Source of the DNA: Pseudomonas oryzihabitans
GTDB lineage: Bacteria > Pseudomonadota > Gammaproteobacteria > Pseudomonadales > Pseudomonadaceae
Assembly (NCBI RefSeq): GCF_001518815.1
Contig: NZ_CP013987.1
Location: 3,618,501-3,682,500, forward strand
DNA: 64,000 nt
Direction: 5' to 3'
The notes beneath the pieces were generated by a model that saw nothing but the letters and a program-made list of their open reading frames with translations, was not told the origin of the DNA and made no database searches. Shown in pieces: positions 32,423 to 44,731 of the stretch (its first letter is position 1; each line of letters opens with the position of its first letter). The position numbers and the translations under genes are program-made.

Positions 32423-33832
32423 CTAGCGGATTTCCGGTAGCAACAACTCCGGCAACTGGGCCAGGAAGGCGGCCTCGTCGTCGAGCTGGCGCAGGTCCAG
32501 CCAGAGGGCATCGGCGTCGATGCGTCCCACCACCGGGATGGGCAGCTGACGCAAGGCTTCTTCCAGCTGCCGCAGGGCGCGGCCGCGCAGGCGCTTGCTG
32601 ACCTGAGGGCGGCAGCACAGCGCCGCGCCGGGCAGCCGTGCCACTGGCTGGGCGCCGCTACCGATCATACCCAATGCCGGTTCCACGCTTACCGCATAGG
32701 TCGCGCCCAGGACGGCGGCGAAGGCCGGCAGCAGGCGCTCGGCCTGGGCGGTGATGTCAGCCGCCGGGCGAGATAGCAGACGCAGGCTGGGCAGCCGCTC
32801 GGCCAAGCGATCCGGATCGCGATAGAGCGCCAGGGTCGCTTCCAGGGCAGCCAGGGTAAGCTTGTCTACCCGCAGGGCGCGCTTGAGCGGATTCTTCTTG
32901 ATGCGCTCGATGAGGTCGCGCCGGCCGACGATGAGGCCACACTGGGGTCCGCCAAGCAGCTTGTCGCCACTGAAGGTCACCAGGTCCGCGCCATCGCGCA
33001 GGGCCTGCTGCACCGTGGGTTCGGCGGGCAGGCCCCAGCGGGTCAGATCCACCAGGGTGCCGCTACCCAGGTCTTCCAGCAGCGGAACCTCATGGGCACG
33101 GGCGATTGCGGCCAGCTCGGGGGTGGCGACGCTGGCGGTGAACCCCTGGACGCTGTAGTTGCTGGTGTGCACGCGCATCAGCAACGCGGTACGCGGCCCG
33201 ATGGCCGCCTCGTAGTCGCGGGCATGGGTGCGATTGGTGGTGCCCACTTCCACCAGCTTGACTCCGGCGCGGGCCATGATGTCGGGAATGCGGAAGGCGC
33301 CACCGATCTCGATCAGCTCGCCACGGGACAGCACCCCTTCCTTGCGTGCGCCTATGGCATGCAAGGCCAGCAGGACCGCCGCAGCGTTATTGTTGACCAC
33401 GGTCACCGCCTCGGCGCCGGTCAGTTCGCGTACCAGGTCAGCCACCAGGTCGTCGCGATCGCCGCGCTTGCCGGTGGCCAGGTCGAATTCCAGATTCATC
33501 GGCTGACGCGCGGCCTCGCTCACCGCGGCGATGGCCTCTTCCGCCAGCAGGGCCCGCCCCAGGTTGGTGTGCAACACCGTGCCGGTGAGGTTGAACACCC
33601 GCCGCACCCGCGGCTGACTGCTCAGCGCCAGACGCTCGCCCAGGCGTCCGGCCAGGACGCCCTCCTCCACCTCCACGGCGGCCAGGGTGCCCGCTCTCAA
33701 GGCCTCGCGCAGATCGTCCAGCAGGGACCGGTAGCCGCCAAGCACCTGCTCGCGACCGTGCCGCTCCTCCAGCGGACGCGAAGCGGGATGGCGCAGCAGG
33801 CGGTCGATGGATGGCAGGCGGATGGCGGTCAT
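32423..33832 (-). CDS. selA: L-seryl-tRNA(Sec) selenium transferase SelA
   Basis: This PLP enzyme converts Ser-tRNA(Sec) to Sec-tRNA(Sec) using selenophosphate and forms a decamer in the cytoplasm. The 469-residue protein has the family N-terminus ([10 protein letters not shown]), the substrate pocket region [19 protein letters not shown] and [15 protein letters not shown], and the PLP lysine Lys291 in [19 protein letters not shown] (Lys295 in E. coli). AAGAGG lies upstream of the ATG; a much longer in-frame extension upstream is not real. selB usually follows selA but does not here. The selenoprotein that needs it, FdoG, is about 13 kb away. Confidence 0.95.
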
Positions 33833-34120
33833 GAAAGCCTCTTGGGTCGAGTCGACCCCCAGTGTAGCCCGAACCCACGACGGGTCGACCAGGGTACTGG
33901 CAGACCCAAGGAGCTGCCGCAGGCGCCGCCAACCATGACCGCAGGCGCCTGGGCCCAGATCTCGGCCGTCTGGAAATGACCCCCGGGTTCCCGGTTTGCC
34001 GCGTGCCAGAGCCCGTCCTAGGATGGAAATCGAGTGCTTGCCCGACCGTCCGCCCACGACGCCGACGGCAGCGCCCTGGCCACCACGTCCACCGCCTTCG
34101 ACAACAACAAAGGTGCCGTC

Positions 34121-35212
34121 ATGTCCAAGAAAAGCTCCCTCTGGGCCAGCGATGGCCTGTTCGACCACAGCGACATCGTCAGCCTCGGCAACTTCACCTA
34201 TGTGCACACGCTGAAGAGTGCCGAGGTCGCGCCACTGAAGCAGACCGCCTCGGCCAGCACCCCCACCGTCAGCGAATTTCTCAACGGCGCCATCAGCGAA
34301 TACGTGCTGGGTGGCACGCCCGACGGCATGCGGCCCTTCCTGGTCGATGGCCATCAGCTGACGCTGCACAACTCGCTCAACGGCGCGACGGCCCACGCCT
34401 GGATCACCGCCGAGAACCAGGTGCTCATCACCTATGCCGGCACCACCCGCGGCGAGAATCTGCTGATCGCTCCCCTGTCCACCGCCGGTGGCCTACTGAG
34501 CGATCTGCAGATCCTCGGCCAGCAGGTGTCCAGTGCCCAGCGCCAGTCACTGGACTTCGCCCATCAAGTAATCGAGGCGGCGGCCAAACAGGGCTATGGC
34601 ACCCAGGACATCTTCGTCACCGGTCACTCCCTGGGTGGCATCTCGGCGGAATACGTTGCCCAGCAGACCGGTCTGGGCGGCATCAGCTTCGAAGCCTCGG
34701 GGATTCCGCGTGACCTGCACGCGGTGGGCCAGGGAGGCAACTTCGTCAACGTGGTCACCCTCGGTGATCCAGTGGCCAACTACAGTTCCGACATCCGTGG
34801 CGAGCAACCCTTCGCACCCAGCTTCGTCAGCCAGGCCGAGGGCGGTGGCAGCCTGCCGCACTATGGCTCGCTGTTCCTGATCGGCGCTCAGGCGGATCAG
34901 CAGGACCTGGCCGAGGCGGCGGCCAAGGTGGGCCACCTGTTCAGCGGCGACAACGGCGGCCAGGTCACGCCGGTGGATGCCGCCCTGCATCCGGTCAGCG
35001 TCACTGCCGGACTGGCCGAGGCAGTACGGCTGATCGCCGAATTCCACCTGCCGGCCGCCGAGTACACCAACCTGGGCGTGACACCTACCGGCGGCTTTCT
35101 CGATACCCTGCCGGCCCATATAGGCACCGCCCACGGCCCGGTGCTGATGGTCGGCAACTACAGCGTGGCGGAGCTGCAGGCCTTTGCCGAGACCCACGCG
35201 ACCTTCGGCTGA
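34121..35212 (+). CDS. Lipase-like alpha/beta hydrolase without signal peptide
   Basis: This 363-residue protein has the nucleophile elbow [16 protein letters not shown] with Ser170 (GxSxG). The preceding [16 protein letters not shown] looks like the oxyanion strand of class 3 lipases. Candidate acid and base residues follow ([18 protein letters not shown]). There is no N-terminal signal or RTX repeat, so export by the Sec route is unlikely; type I, type VI or another route cannot be excluded. The ATG is preferred to an upstream in-frame start because AAAGGT lies nearby. An ankyrin-repeat gene follows 117 bp later on the same strand. The substrate is unknown. Confidence 0.75.
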
Positions 35213-35854: not shown

Positions 35855-36778
35855 TCAGCGCTTCTGGTAGCGATAGAACAGATTGGGCTCGCTGACCACA
35901 TAGAGGTTGCCGGCCCTATCCAGGGTGACCCCTTCCGGCTGGCGGATACGCCGTGACAGGCCGCCGAAGGGTGCCACCAGGGAGCGGGTGTCCAGGGTGC
36001 GCCCCTGGTCGTCGAGTTCGATCAGCATCCGCGACTCGTCGCTGAGCAACAGCAGGTGACCGGTACGGCGATCGACATGGACCGCGGACAGATCGCCGGT
36101 GCTCGGCGCCTGGTCCAGCCAGGCTTGGCGGTCGATGATGCGCAGGGCGAAGTCGCCGTCGAAGCTCTTGAGCAGGCCGCGGATTTCATAGAGCTTGCGC
36201 GGTGAGTGCTCCTTGACCACGAACAACCGATCGCGGACGGCGTCGTAGTCCAGGCCTTCGAAACCCTGGTTGGCGCGGGGGAAGAGATCCAGGGTCAGAC
36301 TGCGGTAGTCGCTACGGCGCAGGACGTCATCTCCCTCGGGAATATCTACCAGGGTCAGGGCATTGGCGCCCTCTTCCGCCAGCAGCAGGCGATCGTTGCC
36401 CAGATAGGTCACGCCCTCTACATCGTCGAAGCCTTCCAGGCGATGCCGCTGCAGCAGGTCGCCGTCGCGACTCAGGGCCAGGAGCTCCGGCGGATTGTTG
36501 ACCACTGCCCAGAGTCGATCGCGCACCGGGTCGTAGCTGAGATCGGAGAGATTCTCGGTGACGCCGGCCACCGGCTTGGCTTCCACCGCGACGCGATAAC
36601 GCCCCAACTCCAGGGAAGTCCGGGGTTCGCTCTGCCACTGCTGGCCTAGCCAGAACAGCAGCTGGCTGTCCAGGTGGCTGCTGCGCAGGCCCTGGGTGAG
36701 CCCCAGCGCCAGCAGCAGGGCCACGCCCAGCCGCCAACCATTCCGCCCAACCCTGATCCGTCGTACCCACGCCGTCAT
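35855..36778 (-). CDS. SdiA-regulated (YjiK-like) beta-propeller protein
   Basis: This 307-residue protein has a basic N-terminus and one hydrophobic segment (RLGVALLLALGLTQGL, about 17-32), which acts as a membrane anchor or uncleaved signal. The rest is a beta-propeller with repeats such as LSDLSYDPVRDRLWAVVNNP, FEGLDYDAVRDRLFVVKEHS and PEGVTLDRAGNLYVVSEPN. This is the SdiA-regulated domain family (YjiK). The function is unknown; it is probably periplasmic and metal- or ligand-binding. It lies 67 bp downstream of the Pls/PosA-like synthetase on the same strand and could share its transcript. Confidence 0.85.
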   Translation of the reverse strand: MTAWVRRIRVGRNGWRLGVALLLALGLTQGLRSSHLDSQLLFWLGQQWQSEPRTSLELGRYRVAVEAKPVAGVTENLSDLSYDPVRDRLWAVVNNPPELLALSRDGDLLQRHRLEGFDDVEGVTYLGNDRLLLAEEGANALTLVDIPEGDDVLRRSDYRSLTLDLFPRANQGFEGLDYDAVRDRLFVVKEHSPRKLYEIRGLLKSFDGDFALRIIDRQAWLDQAPSTGDLSAVHVDRRTGHLLLLSDESRMLIELDDQGRTLDTRSLVAPFGGLSRRIRQPEGVTLDRAGNLYVVSEPNLFYRYQKR

Positions 36779-36845: not shown

Positions 36846-39800
36846 CTAACGACGGGGCTGAACGGGGTTACCTTCCCAACGCGAGTGATTTGGCAGAGTT
36901 TCGCCCTTCATCACCAGCGACAGGGGCCCCAGTTCCACGTTGTCGCCGACCCGGGCGCCATAGAGCACCACGCTGCGCGGCCCCAGGTTGATGCCGGCAC
37001 CCAGCTCCACCTCGCCGACCTTCATCACCCGGTCTTCGAACAGGTGGGTCTGGGGACCGGCCAGGGCGTTGAGTTCGCCGTGATCGCCCAGCCGCACGCA
37101 ATCGAACTCGGTGAGGTCGGTGGTATCCAGGTAGGTGCCCCGGCCCAGTCGGGCGCCGAGCAGGCGCAGGGCCAGGGGCAGCCAGGGCGTACCGCGCAGG
37201 GTGCCGAGCAGATTGGGCACGGCCAGGGTCTCGTAGAGGCTGGTGATGGCTTCGCTGCGCCAGACGAAAAAGGTCCACATGGGCGCCGAGCGCGGTCGAT
37301 AGCGACCGACCACCAGCCACTTGAGGCCCAGCACCACCAGGAAACTGGCCAGGGCGAAGACGCTGCCGGCCAGCAGGGTCTCGCCCAGCAGCTGCAGCCA
37401 GGCTCCGGCCTGCCACAGCGGCACCAGGGCCTCGGCGATGGCGCAGCCGGCGGCGACGGTGAAGCCGGTGGGCAGCACGATGCGCAGTGCCTCGATCAGG
37501 CCACGCGCCACCCGGCGCCAGGGTGCCGGGCGGAACGTCAGACTTTCCGGGTAGCCGGTGAGGGTTTCCCGCGCCGGCAACCGCACCGCCGGCGAGCCTA
37601 GCCAGGTCTCGCCCTGGCGCAGGGGCACGCCTTCGTCGAGCCGACCGAGGACACCGATCAGGGCGTCCTCGGGGATATGGCAGCCGTCGGCGACATAGGC
37701 GCCGTTGCCGACGAAACTGCGGCGGGCGATGGAGGTGCGCCTGAGGGTCATCCAGCCCTGGGCTACCTGTTCGTCGCCTAGCATCACGGCATCGGCGATA
37801 AAGGTCTCGGCGCCCAGTTCCAGCAACGAGGACACCGGGCCCTGGGCGGTGGATATCTCCGCATCACGGCCGACCCGGGCACCCAGCAGGCGATACCAGA
37901 GGGCCGAGTACACCGTGGCATAGAGGCCCTGCAGGCTTTGCAGCGCCGACTCCTGGATCAGGTTGGCCAGCCACTTGCGCCAGTAGAAGAGGCTGTCGAC
38001 CGACCACTGGCCTTCGTCCAGGCGCGGCAGGATCAGCCGGCGCGCCAGGGCGCAGCCGAGCAGGGTCAGGGCAACGCTGACCACGCCCAGTGGCAGCGCC
38101 AGCACCCCATACTGCAGGGCGTCGAGCAGCGGCGAAGAGGTGTGCCACCAGGGCAGTCCACCGAAACTTTCCAGTTCGTCGATCAGCAGCGCCAGCGGGA
38201 ACAGCGGCATGAAGAACAGCACCGAGACCACCAGGCCGCTGAGGGCATAGAGGCCTTTGAGCAAGGTACGTTGAATGCGGGACACCGGGGTTGGCGGCAG
38301 GACGCGGGCACCGGCGGCACCCTGGTCGTGGGCCGGCGCGCCGCCCCAGTTGCGTCCGGCCGGGACGCGCTGACCGCTGCGCAAGGCAGACTGGGCCTGC
38401 AGGCGAGCGCCGTCACCAAGGGCGGTATCACCTTCGAGGATGGCATAGGAGCCGACCTGGGCCTCCTGGCCGAGGGTCACGGGGCCAAGCAGCAACTCGC
38501 CGCGCAGCACCCGGGCGTTCTCGAAGTTGACGCCATTGCCCAGGCTGGCGCCCTGCCCCAGGGTCAGCAGCTCGGGGACGCGCAAGGTCAGGGTGCCGAC
38601 GAAGGCCTCGGCACCGACCTGGGCGCCCAGCAGCCGGAGCCAGCCACGAGCCAATGGCGAGCCGCTGAGCAGGTAGGCCGGCGCCAGGGCGAGAAAGCGT
38701 TCGCCCAGCCACCAGCGGTAGTAGGTCAGGCCCCACAGCGGATAACGACCGGGCTGCAGGCGCCCGGTCAGGCGCTTGCCTACCAGGGCCACGGCGAATT
38801 CCAGGCCGATGGCCAGAACGAACAGACTCAGGGCGGTCAGCATGGCCAGGGGCAGCGTGGTGCCGGAATGGATCAGCAGCGGGAAGGCCAGGAAAGGTGC
38901 CAACCAGCGTCCCAGGCGCAGGGTCAGGAGTGGCGGCAGAGCCGCCGCCTGGGCCAGCCCGCAACGCCAGCGGCGCCAGCGGCTGGGTGGGGCCCAGGCC
39001 TCGGTGGCCATGGCCTGGCCAGCCTCGGCGGCATCCGCCTCCAGGGCGTCGGCAATGGCGCCCAGGGTGCGACCGGAATAGACCGCCTTGACCGTGGCGC
39101 TGGCATAGCGCGAGTCCTGACGCAGGCGCGAAACCAGTCGGGCGGCAAACAGCGAGTGACCGCCCAGGTCATCGAAGAAATCCATCTCGGCGTGCAGCGC
39201 CTGGCCGGGAAACAGTTCGGCGGTGGCCGCGAGAACGGCGCCCAGGGCGCCGCTGGCCGGAGCGACCGGCGCCACCACGGCAATGGCCAGCGGCCGGGTG
39301 CGCAACTGCTTGCGGTCGATCTTGCCGGAATTCAGTCGCGGCATCTCGCCGAGCCACTCGAAACGGCTGGGCACCATGTACAGCGGCAGGCAGCCGGCCA
39401 GCTCGGTCCGCAACAGGTCGCTGCGCGGCACCGGGCCGCCATCACCGACCAGGAAGGCCACCAGTTGCTCGACGCCGGCCTCTTCGCGCAGCACCACTGC
39501 CACGGTCCCGACGCCGGGCTGCCTCGCCAGGGTGGCTTCGATCTCGCCCAGCTCGACCCGATAGCCGCGGATCTTCACCTGGTCGTCGACCCGCCCCAGG
39601 CAATGCACCTGGCCGTGTTCGTCGACCCGCGCCAGGTCGCCGGTGCGATAGAGCTTGAGGTCGTGACTGCCGGTGCTCCAGGGATTGGGCAGGAATTTCT
39701 CGGCGGTCAGTTCGGGACGCCCCAGATAGCCATCGGCGACACCCGGACCGGTGATGCAGAGTTCGCCCACCTGGTCGCGCGGCAGCAAGGTCAGCGGCTG

Positions 39801-40841
39801 GCTGGCATCGGCCGGCACCACCAGCAGGCTGTAGTTGGGCAGCGGGCGGCCGATGGTCACGGGTTCGCCCGCGTGCAGCTGCGCCAGACTGGCCGAGACG
39901 GTGCCCTCACTCGGACCATAGGTATTGAATAGTTGCCGCTGCGGCCGACTCCAGCGCGCCACCAGGGGCTCGGGGCACATCTCGCCGCCGAGGTTGATCA
40001 GCCGCAGGCTAGGGACGTCTTCCGGCAACAGCGCCAGCAGGGTCGGCACCACGTGCAACACGCTGATGCGATTGGCGGTCAGGGCGCGGGCCAGGGCCTC
40101 GGGGTCGGCGGTGATCTCCCGCGGCGCCAGCCAGAGGGTGGCGCCCACCAGGTAGCTGATCCAGATCTCCTCGAAGGACATGTCGAACGCTACCGAGAAG
40201 CCCTGGTAGACCCGGTCGCCGGCCTCGATGCCGAGCAGCGAATTCTCACTGCGCAAGAAGTGGCAGATGCTGTCCTGGCGGATGCCGATGCCCTTGGGTT
40301 TGCCGGTGGAGCCGGAGGTATAGATCAGGTAGGCCAGGTTGTCCGGGGAGACCTGGCCACGCCGGCGCAGGGTCTCGCCCTGGGCCAGGGCGACGCTCAG
40401 CTCGCCGGGGGTCCAGCAGCCAAGCCCGGGACGCGCCAGCAGATCGGCGAAGGGCGCTCCAGTGATGACACCGACCGCCTGGGCGTCCTCCAGGCAGAGG
40501 GCCACGCGGTCGGCCGGGGTCTCGGCATCGCAGGGCAGCCAGGCGGCGCCGGTCTTGGCGATGGCCAGTTGCATCACCAGCAGCTCGATGCCGCGCGGCA
40601 GCCAGAGGCCGACCACGCGGCCAGGCCCGGCGCCAGCCGCCAGCAGCCGCGAGGCAGCGCGATCGGCCCAGGCGTCCAGCTCGCCGTAGCTCAGGCTGCG
40701 CTCGCCTTCGAGCAGGGCGGGCCGCTCCGGCGCCCGCGTCGCGGTGGCCTCGAACAGATCGGCGAGGACTTCATCGCGGCACAGGTCGGGGTGGATGGGG
40801 CCTTCGACCAGACTGAGGGAGAGTTCGGCAAGCGCTTCCAT
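36846..40841 (-). CDS. Pls/PosA-family membrane nonribosomal peptide synthetase
   Basis: This single-module enzyme of 1331 residues matches poly-lysine synthetase Pls (about 1319) in length. An adenylation domain occupies 30-510 (A3 YLIYTSGSTGKPKG 171-184, FDMS 219-222, A5 NTYGPSEG 306-313, TGDL, A10 lysine Lys507). A carrier domain follows, with Ser563 in DDLGGHSL. The rest has six or so membrane helices interleaved with hexapeptide beta-helix domains (ALGDGARLQAQSAL, IGVLGRLDEGVPLRQG, LGDHGELNALAGP). There is no condensation or thioesterase domain. Known members make cationic homopolymers (epsilon-poly-lysine, delta-poly-ornithine). The pocket has Asp220 and Glu224, consistent with a basic amino acid. 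The product is unproven. Confidence 0.88.
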   Translation of the reverse strand: MEALAELSLSLVEGPIHPDLCRDEVLADLFEATATRAPERPALLEGERSLSYGELDAWADRAASRLLAAGAGPGRVVGLWLPRGIELLVMQLAIAKTGAAWLPCDAETPADRVALCLEDAQAVGVITGAPFADLLARPGLGCWTPGELSVALAQGETLRRRGQVSPDNLAYLIYTSGSTGKPKGIGIRQDSICHFLRSENSLLGIEAGDRVYQGFSVAFDMSFEEIWISYLVGATLWLAPREITADPEALARALTANRISVLHVVPTLLALLPEDVPSLRLINLGGEMCPEPLVARWSRPQRQLFNTYGPSEGTVSASLAQLHAGEPVTIGRPLPNYSLLVVPADASQPLTLLPRDQVGELCITGPGVADGYLGRPELTAEKFLPNPWSTGSHDLKLYRTGDLARVDEHGQVHCLGRVDDQVKIRGYRVELGEIEATLARQPGVGTVAVVLREEAGVEQLVAFLVGDGGPVPRSDLLRTELAGCLPLYMVPSRFEWLGEMPRLNSGKIDRKQLRTRPLAIAVVAPVAPASGALGAVLAATAELFPGQALHAEMDFFDDLGGHSLFAARLVSRLRQDSRYASATVKAVYSGRTLGAIADALEADAAEAGQAMATEAWAPPSRWRRWRCGLAQAAALPPLLTLRLGRWLAPFLAFPLLIHSGTTLPLAMLTALSLFVLAIGLEFAVALVGKRLTGRLQPGRYPLWGLTYYRWWLGERFLALAPAYLLSGSPLARGWLRLLGAQVGAEAFVGTLTLRVPELLTLGQGASLGNGVNFENARVLRGELLLGPVTLGQEAQVGSYAILEGDTALGDGARLQAQSALRSGQRVPAGRNWGGAPAHDQGAAGARVLPPTPVSRIQRTLLKGLYALSGLVVSVLFFMPLFPLALLIDELESFGGLPWWHTSSPLLDALQYGVLALPLGVVSVALTLLGCALARRLILPRLDEGQWSVDSLFYWRKWLANLIQESALQSLQGLYATVYSALWYRLLGARVGRDAEISTAQGPVSSLLELGAETFIADAVMLGDEQVAQGWMTLRRTSIARRSFVGNGAYVADGCHIPEDALIGVLGRLDEGVPLRQGETWLGSPAVRLPARETLTGYPESLTFRPAPWRRVARGLIEALRIVLPTGFTVAAGCAIAEALVPLWQAGAWLQLLGETLLAGSVFALASFLVVLGLKWLVVGRYRPRSAPMWTFFVWRSEAITSLYETLAVPNLLGTLRGTPWLPLALRLLGARLGRGTYLDTTDLTEFDCVRLGDHGELNALAGPQTHLFEDRVMKVGEVELGAGINLGPRSVVLYGARVGDNVELGPLSLVMKGETLPNHSRWEGNPVQPRR

Positions 40842-40894: not shown

Positions 40895-40922
40895 CTTAAG
40901 GGGCGCTTAGGGTTTGCTTAAG
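40895..40922 (-). promoter_or_regulatory. Triple CTTAAG direct repeat (PmrA-like box) upstream of Pls/PosA-like gene
   Basis: Read towards the gene: CTTAAG, 5 bp, CCTAAG, 5 bp, CTTAAG. The 11-bp period places all three on one face of DNA, as for OmpR-family response regulators; CTTAAG-N5-CTTAAG is the published PmrA-type box. The last hexamer is 54 bp before the ATG. A weak -10-like GATACA lies 17 bp further on, so this hexamer would occupy the -35 position. Confidence 0.65.
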
Positions 40923-41024: not shown

Positions 41025-41049
41025 AAAAAAACGCCTCCCGGAGGAGGCG
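41025..41049 (-). terminator. Intrinsic terminator of katG
   Basis: The stem CGCCTCC/GGAGGCG with a 4-nt loop is followed on the katG strand by seven T residues, 22 bp after the katG stop. Confidence 0.9.
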
Positions 41050-41070
41050 CTTCTGGTTACTACGTGGCGA

Positions 41071-43813
<2,743 letters not shown>

Positions 43814-44731
43814 CTAGCCGGGGGCGAACAGCAGGTTGGGCGCGTGGCGTTCGTAGCCCTCTTCCGCCAGGCGTACGTCCAGCGCCAGACTGGCAAGGTC
43901 GGCGGACAGGGGTTCGCTGCGAGCGTCGTAGTCGCGGTAGAGGTGCTTGAGGTAGGTCTTGCAGTGGGCGCAGGTCTCGGCGCGTAGCGGCGCCTTCTGG
44001 GCGTTGGCGTCGTCGGTGCTCAGGGAGTAGTAGCCCAGGCCCTTGCCAGTCTCGCAGTGGCTGCACTTGACCCGTACGAAGTGCCACTCGCAGGCGCACA
44101 GCGAGCAGGTGAGATACCTCAGGCCATTGGCCTTGCCCAGGTGATGGATGATGCCGGCCATGGGCGGCGCGCCGCAGCAGGGGCAGAGGGTCTGGCTGCC
44201 CTGTTCGCGCAGGGCACTGAAGTCACTGCGCTGCAGCCAGTGGGTCCAGGCTACCTGCAGGGCGGCGCCGAGGAAGGGCACCACGCCGGCGGGCACCAGC
44301 TCATAGCTGCCGGCCAGCAGGGCGATGGCCCAGGCCTTGCGCTGGCCGGCATCGGCCTGGCGCAAGGCGTCGAGGGCGGCCCGTACCGGCGCCTGCTCGA
44401 CCGTGCAGGCCTCCAATAGCGCATCCAGCGCGGGCAACCAGTCACCTTCGCGGACCAGGGTGTCGTAACCCAGGGGTGGCAGACCGTGCGCCAGGCTCTG
44501 GGCGCTGCGGGCCTCGTCCAATGGCAGGGGCGCGAGCTGGTCGAAGACCCCTTGCTGGGCCTCGCACAGGTCGGCCATCAGCAGCAGGTAGTCACTCAGC
44601 GCATTGCCGGTGGCCAGCAGTCGCAGGCGGTCGGCGCGATAGCCGAACAGCTCGCCACCAGGCAGGAGGATGAAATCGGGGTTGACGGCCGCGGCTTCGA
44701 TTTCGCCGGGCTCGAGGATCTGGCCCGCCAT
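43814..44731 (-). CDS. fdhE: Formate dehydrogenase accessory protein FdhE
   Basis: FdhE is a cytoplasmic rubredoxin-like protein needed to mature respiratory formate dehydrogenases before Tat export. The 305-residue protein carries four CxxC pairs in its C-terminal half: TLCPCCGAPPMAG, YLTCSLCACEWHF, KCSHCETGKG and ETCAHCKTY. These bind iron. It follows fdoI on the same strand, but the 160-bp gap contains a palindromic repeat. It closes the fdoGHI-fdhE cluster. Confidence 0.95.
   Translation of the reverse strand: MAGQILEPGEIEAAAVNPDFILLPGGELFGYRADRLRLLATGNALSDYLLLMADLCEAQQGVFDQLAPLPLDEARSAQSLAHGLPPLGYDTLVREGDWLPALDALLEACTVEQAPVRAALDALRQADAGQRKAWAIALLAGSYELVPAGVVPFLGAALQVAWTHWLQRSDFSALREQGSQTLCPCCGAPPMAGIIHHLGKANGLRYLTCSLCACEWHFVRVKCSHCETGKGLGYYSLSTDDANAQKAPLRAETCAHCKTYLKHLYRDYDARSEPLSADLASLALDVRLAEEGYERHAPNLLFAPG

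Follow-up and report, generated by a model that had tools for sequence, protein, structure and literature searches.

A predicted PosA-type delta-poly-L-ornithine synthetase gene of Pseudomonas oryzihabitans and its candidate CarR/BqsR-type operator

Two described enzymes stand closest to the gene presented here. PosA, from Acinetobacter baumannii, is a delta-poly-L-ornithine synthetase composed of an adenylation domain, a carrier domain and a terminal domain. It carries the pocket code D M E H N G T V S K and yields 7-12-mers in vitro (PMC10522769). Pls, the epsilon-poly-L-lysine synthetase of Streptomyces, belongs to the same family and has the same layout. A 2022 abstract calls it unclear what biological significance polycationic homopoly(amino acid)s have in bacteria (PMC9606270). 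The gene described in this study is predicted to encode a PosA-type delta-poly-L-ornithine synthetase in Pseudomonas oryzihabitans and lies at 36846..40841, on the minus strand, of a stretch of 64,000 nucleotides that we call the window (assembly GCF_001518815.1, contig NZ_CP013987.1, positions 3,618,501 to 3,682,500). The enzyme belongs to the known PosA kind, and what is new is the probable control of its gene.

In P. aeruginosa, the two-component system BqsRS is the same as CarRS. It is encoded in the four-gene operon bqsPQRS, and its kinase responded in vitro to Fe2+ and not to Ca2+ (PMC12666569). BqsR activates transcription from TTAAG(N)6TTAAG; overlapping operators share pentamers, with the last pentamer over the -35 element (PMC4682146). 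BqsRS/CarRS drives expression of genes for making and transporting polyamines, and the mutant was shielded from cationic stress by spermidine (PMC5192502, PMC8120321). No poly-amino-acid synthetase was found among the targets in the available portions of this literature. Among the matches listed from open-licence literature, we found no report that links CarR or BqsR to such a synthetase and none of a Pls/PosA-type product in Pseudomonas, although the supplementary table of the PosA paper may list Pseudomonas proteins.

Layout, pocket and clade of the synthetase

The synthetase gene runs from an ATG at 40841 to a stop at 36846 and encodes 1331 amino acids. An earlier sequence-only reading of the window had given the same length and coordinates, to which the minus strand is now added. 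Pfam places AMP-binding at residues 30-373, AMP-binding_C at 433-507, PP-binding at 542-600 and a hexapeptide match at 788-818, and it finds no condensation or thioesterase domain. The adenylation domain, delimited by Pfam and by alignment to the PosA chain, spans residues 30-514 (39300..40754, minus strand), and the carrier domain spans residues 542-600 (39042..39218, minus strand). Alignment confirms Ser563 as the carrier serine; it is invariant in 104 of 104 aligned sequences, the window included. The terminal domain, residues 630-1327 (36861..38954, minus strand), matches the NCBIfam model TIGR02353, 'Pls/PosA family non-ribosomal peptide synthetase', with 688.9 bits against a cut-off of 423.1. 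In a search of the whole 4.83-Mb genome, the synthetase (691.3 bits) is the only copy above this cut-off. The sequence-only reading had proposed one adenylation domain, one carrier domain with Ser563, and a Pls/PosA-type protein recognizable by the AMP-binding, PP-binding and TIGR02353 models. All three models match, and the assignment is further supported by the layout, by a full-length match to A. baumannii PosA (49% identity end to end) and by the phylogeny described below. Elsewhere in the genome (G000:C1:2875116-2897881) there are two very large frames with adenylation domains, of 5349 and 3241 amino acids.

The closest named records come from P. oryzihabitans and its near kin (93-97% identity). 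As proteins, the genus copies compared are 92-97% identical. At four-fold degenerate sites, by contrast, nine sequences all agree in only 349 of 729 cases, which argues for purifying selection. The frame does not look like a chance reading frame or a dead gene.

The pocket was mapped by alignment to the PosA crystal sequence (chain 8g95). This alignment ends before K507, which was taken from the A10-type motif NSGKIDR. The residues are D220, M221, E224, H263, N283, G285, T307, V315, S316 and K507, which give D-M-E-H-N-G-T-V-S-K and equal the PosA code at all ten positions. The sequence-only reading, D-M-E-H-I-L-T-V-S-K, had eight letters right; its fifth and sixth, I-L, are N-G, and the ornithine-type pocket that it suspected is closer to PosA than it supposed. 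Relatives were counted among the best 80 of 336 confirmed named matches, a set whose search patterns came from this protein and which is biased toward close kin. The exact code DMEHNGTVSK occurs in 78 of the 80 (71 of the 73 from outside Pseudomonas), and the other two have serine for threonine (DMEHNGSVSK). Three copies from another Pseudomonadaceae genus also carry DMEHNGTVSK. The code is DAESIGTVVK in a Streptomyces protein annotated as Pls (L167; 35% identity to the synthetase) and in a Rhodococcus opacus protein (L171).

A quick tree of 104 rows agrees with the pocket, subject to a program warning about long branches and unusual letter composition that also concerns genus copies. The 90 rows with DMEHNG-type codes form a set with a support of 100 in the Shimodaira-Hasegawa-like approximate likelihood ratio test (SH-aLRT), and the fork that joins PosA with 87 other rows has a support of 89. 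A Sphingomonas row with DMEHNGTVTK falls outside the 90-row set. The nine genus copies are sister to 73 rows, of which 70 are named relatives from outside Pseudomonas (73 in all) and three are the copies of the other Pseudomonadaceae genus. Support is 88 for these 73 rows and 99 for the 82 rows together. PosA stands outside the 82, on a neighboring branch, and the Streptomyces Pls is distant on a branch of its own. The tree thus supports grouping the synthetase with the PosA (ornithine) branch and not with the Streptomyces Pls branch. The likeness to Pls that had been noted from the sequence holds for family and layout and not for the lysine-type branch, and placement outside the Pls/PosA clade, which would have spoken against the assignment, was not found. 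Pocket code and tree together led us to reject a lysine (Pls) reading. One distant homologue with a single in-frame stop (L130/L179, genome G362) was observed; L179 was excluded from the code, tree and invariance counts. Taken as class and product jointly, a PosA-type enzyme that makes a short cationic delta-poly-L-ornithine is highly probable from code, layout and clade.

AlphaFold2 predicts three helix pairs and three tandem beta-helices in the terminal part, and five of the six expected C-terminal segments exceed the hydropathy threshold. Fold matches were taken from a VIA re-alignment of 941 Foldseek matches, of which 50 were listed. Among the matches listed, the hits fall mainly on the first beta-helix, and the predicted fold is that of hexapeptide-type acyltransferases with varied acceptors. 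In the third beta-helix, the alignment picks out the motif Q1264-T-H-L-F-E-D-R-V-M-K1274 (37020..37052, minus strand), in which Q1264 and H1266 are invariant in 104 of 104 sequences. This Q-x-H motif is proposed as the candidate catalytic site of the polymerizing domain.

The candidate triple operator and the CarR-like regulator

The upstream neighbor of the synthetase gene is katG (catalase-peroxidase, PF00141; 41071..43332, minus strand). A terminator-like hairpin with a T run, read directly from the sequence, follows katG at 41025..41050 (minus strand), so that transcription of the synthetase gene probably starts from a promoter of its own. A terminator scan listed the katG hairpin on the plus strand only, and terminator-like sites were no more numerous than in shuffles. 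No promoter-like site before the synthetase gene was listed in a sigma-70 scan, as is expected of an activator-dependent promoter.

A candidate triple CarR/BqsR-type operator, TTAAG-N6-CTAAG-N6-TTAAG, is present at 40895..40921 (minus strand), 80 to 54 bases before the start codon. Its pentamers are 6 bp apart and shared between overlapping operators, as in the BqsR/CarR regulon; the middle pentamer is CTAAK here. The expectation of such a triple by chance in the window is 0.00 (100 shuffles, up to one mismatch). In nine genus sequences, 14 of the 15 pentamer positions are invariant, as are all six positions of the first spacer and two of six in the second. From -85 to -1, 65 of 85 positions are invariant, and from -120 to -86 only one of 35. 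In five of the nine sequences, the window included, each adjacent pentamer pair departs from the consensus at one position (C for T), and in the other four at two; all lie within the two-mismatch limit of PMC4682146, and none is perfect.

Across 13 genus genomes, the pattern TTAAG-N6-YTAAK-N6-TTAAG occurs perfectly at 18 sites, compared with a single hit in all 13 for the reversed control. Ten of these sites lie 54-81 bases before the synthetase gene, in ten of ten carrier genomes (all ten positions were computed and nine were read directly). The other eight, in eight genomes, stand before an operon that encodes two PepSY proteins, a response regulator (RR) and a histidine kinase (HK). A second triple site was not found in carriers G010 and G012. 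The three genus genomes without the synthetase gene contain no perfect triple, and the two-component system was not searched for there.

The PepSY-PepSY-RR-HK operon of P. oryzihabitans lies outside the window (L204, G000:C1:2505900-2511000), and its gene order may be set beside bqsPQRS. It has its own box at G000:C1:2508408-2508434, with three perfect pentamers followed, 6 bp on, by a fourth, TTAAT, and is likely an autoregulated metal or cation sensor. The best solved relative of its response regulator is the CarR receiver 8gc6 (210.5 bits, 2.6e-61), and the CarR DNA-binding domain 9yfa scores 148.1 bits (3.1e-42). We take both CarR entries to be the P. aeruginosa protein, which fits the close alignment. 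Control of the synthetase gene by this CarR-like regulator is judged probable from the shared operator.

The two-repeat form of the pattern occurs at seven places in the P. oryzihabitans genome (nine strand hits, control zero). Five of them (G000:C1:398203, 1044154, 1318851, 1454965 and 4133398; L200-L203 and L205) lie up to about 280 bases before genes for a DUF4337 protein, an open reading frame (ORF) without Pfam match, an alginate-lyase-family protein, a CLP_protease-family protein and a DUF748/AsmA protein, and they are candidates for a small regulon. Among the 80 named loci, the strict two-repeat pattern was present in seven, all Pseudomonas. A looser scan covered 103 upstream stretches (L179 and L185 were left out, L185 being far below the family cut-off). 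It showed a perfect pair before the betaproteobacterial copy L085 (0 of 200 shuffles) and one-mismatch pairs in the Undibacterium-type L097, L102 and L112 (shuffle fraction 0.02-0.045); these are scattered and suggestive only. The A. baumannii gene (L163) differs from the gene of the window in having only a TTAAT-N6-TTAAG look-alike, which is not significant (shuffle fraction 0.055).

The locus, its neighbors and its distribution

PosA and the synthetase are both without an obvious partner gene, on the PosA side according to PMC10522769; they differ in genus and in genome site. Here, the gene lies after katG and between fdhE (43814..44731, minus strand) and selA (32423..33844, minus strand, start approximate). 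These about 10 kb hold katG, the synthetase gene, a gene for an SdiA-regulated (PF06977) protein and an ORF of 392 amino acids without Pfam match (34034..35212, plus strand). The PF06977 gene (35855..36778, minus strand) begins 67 bases downstream of the synthetase gene, and the two are possibly co-transcribed. The katG, synthetase and PF06977 genes are all present in the same ten of 13 genus genomes. The remaining three lack all of them and contain, of the PF06977 family, no more than paralogues of 35-40% identity. In those three, selA directly follows fdhE with a gap of at most about 150 bases. The four genus loci compared preserve the 392-amino-acid ORF at 88-98%, and the three empty-site loci, of 19 kb, showed no copy of it. 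The block looks like a lineage-specific insertion; conversely, it was possibly deleted from the three genomes. In genome G007 (L186:8944-14001), an extra 5 kb with OprD, MFS and IclR genes separates katG from the synthetase gene, and the last 85 promoter bases are kept despite it. Composition gives no clear signal of recent foreign DNA: the GC content is 0.699 in the synthetase gene and 0.662 in the window, and GC at third codon positions is 0.86 compared with 0.84 in katG and fdhA.

A conserved cluster around the synthetase was also sought. Only one family, a phosphopantetheinyl transferase (PPTase) cluster with 37 members, is common to more than nine of the 80 named loci, and it is absent beside the genus copies. 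Of the 73 non-Pseudomonas relatives, 37 have a gene of this cluster downstream in the same orientation, at most 40 bases from the stop in 35 cases. The single member tested is a PPTase (PF01648), and annotated records from Rhizobium and Sphingomonas have a like arrangement. Betaproteobacterial homologues (54-60% identity over the best segment for the named ones) and the copies of the other Pseudomonadaceae genus often have an adjoining PPTase, unlike the genus loci examined. The P. oryzihabitans genome has one PF01648 match, away from the synthetase gene, and this lone PPTase presumably serves the carrier.

The family cut-off is passed by 13 of 298 Pseudomonadaceae genomes, ten from the same genus (of 13) and three from another. 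It is passed by eight of 369 genomes in the class sample and six of 390 in the order sample, the P. oryzihabitans genome counted. In the tree, the three copies of the other genus (L172-L174) nest among Oxalobacteraceae. Forcing both Pseudomonadaceae groups into one clade (seven of 44 rows) was rejected by the approximately unbiased (AU) test with p 2.6e-47; the test used 44 of the 104 rows, a group named after the first tree was seen, and branches flagged as long. This rejection favors separate acquisitions and, with the 13 of 298 spread, speaks against vertical descent within the family. In L172-L174 the PPTase adjoins the synthetase gene, which suggests transfer of a two-gene unit.

A proposed role and its alternatives

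In the proposed mechanism, the adenylation domain would activate L-ornithine with ATP and load it on the phosphopantetheine arm at Ser563, an arm presumably attached by the single PF01648 PPTase. The terminal domain, with three membrane-helix pairs that bear three fused left-handed beta-helices, would then link the units through the side-chain amine into a short delta-poly-L-ornithine, perhaps with H1266 as catalytic base. A CarRS/BqsRS-type system would switch the gene on through the triple TTAAG box, with ferrous iron or a related cationic envelope stress as the trigger of polymer synthesis. The domain layout, pocket identity, clade, fold prediction and the operator with its conservation are direct results; substrate, linkage, catalytic residue, control and role are inferred from them. 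The promoter points to envelope or cation-stress physiology, beyond what the sequence-only reading had considered. The triple site common to the synthetase gene and the CarR-like operon suggests a polycation that protects the envelope and is not only an antibiotic. We tentatively propose that poly-ornithine is a regulated envelope polycation, induced by a CarRS/BqsRS-type system under ferrous iron or other cationic stress, that fills anionic surface sites rather than acting primarily as an antibiotic.

Several observations weigh against this proposal or the control on which it builds. The middle pentamer, CTAAG or CTAAT, is off the BqsR consensus. In a two-pentamer test promoter of P. aeruginosa, replacing T with C at position 1 of the upstream pentamer lowered expression almost ten-fold (PMC4682146), so the operator could be a weak one, or PmrA or another related regulator could be its reader. 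For the four copies with CTAAT, 4-8% of shuffles contain a pair as good as the best single one; the argument for an operator relies on the triple pattern and on how well it is conserved. That conservation is wider than the box, taking in the whole first spacer and most of the 85 bases before the gene. The strict two-repeat pattern is found before none of the 73 non-Pseudomonas relatives, and no PPTase lies beside the gene in the eight genus loci examined. A posA knockout of A. baumannii grew similarly and formed slightly more biofilm, and synthetic delta-poly-ornithine is antifungal, which alone gives no hint of a stress shield (PMC10522769).

The alternatives concern the reader of the box, the purpose of the polymer and the chemistry. 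Sites of the PmrA/BasR type are similar to the box, and full-length BasR ranks next after CarR in its match to the regulator (153.3 bits over 219 residues). With the deviant middle pentamer, this would suit PmrA or another OmpR-type regulator as the reader. The CarR receiver alone scores above full-length BasR, however, and the sole other perfect triples in the genus stand before the CarR-like operon itself, which makes this reading improbable. The polymer could instead be a secreted antifungal or antibacterial weapon, with the regulator merely timing its release. Antimicrobial action is described for Streptomyces epsilon-poly-lysine, and the PosA polymer is inhibitory to yeasts, but the minimum inhibitory concentrations of delta-poly-ornithine on fungi are high, at 0.15-0.30 g/L (PMC10522769). 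No exporter, immunity or degradation gene is recognizable among the identified block genes (katG and PF06977, beside the ORF without Pfam match), and the triple operator is common only to the CarR-like regulator's operon. We regard a weapon as a rather unlikely purpose.

As for the chemistry, activation of another basic amino acid (lysine or diaminobutyrate), or a mixed polymer, is conceivable in that pocket codes alone are imperfect predictors and PosA itself is weakly active on lysine (PMC10522769). It is quite unlikely given a pocket that equals PosA throughout, M221 included, where lysine-activating members of the family (PMC10522769) and the Pls-annotated L167 have alanine. Least probable of all would be transfer of single ornithines, with no polymerization, onto an acceptor in the envelope, as a membrane counterpart of D-alanylation. 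The DltA model scores 234.4 bits on the synthetase, below its cut-off of 476, the terminal fold is shared with acyltransferases of varied acceptors, and the control is of an envelope-stress type, all of which would fit; PosA, with the same layout and code, nevertheless forms 7-12-mers.

The locus links a synthetase whose pocket equals the proven ornithine pocket of PosA with a regulator and a stimulus that are candidates for its control, and it makes the question of role approachable through deletion of the gene and a promoter reporter. For the polymerizing domain, the invariant Q-x-H motif likewise supplies a candidate active site. If the envelope-polycation proposal is true, it would explain the purpose of cationic homopoly(amino acid)s in Gram-negative bacteria, and poly-ornithine would be the polymeric counterpart of surface spermidine in P. 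aeruginosa.

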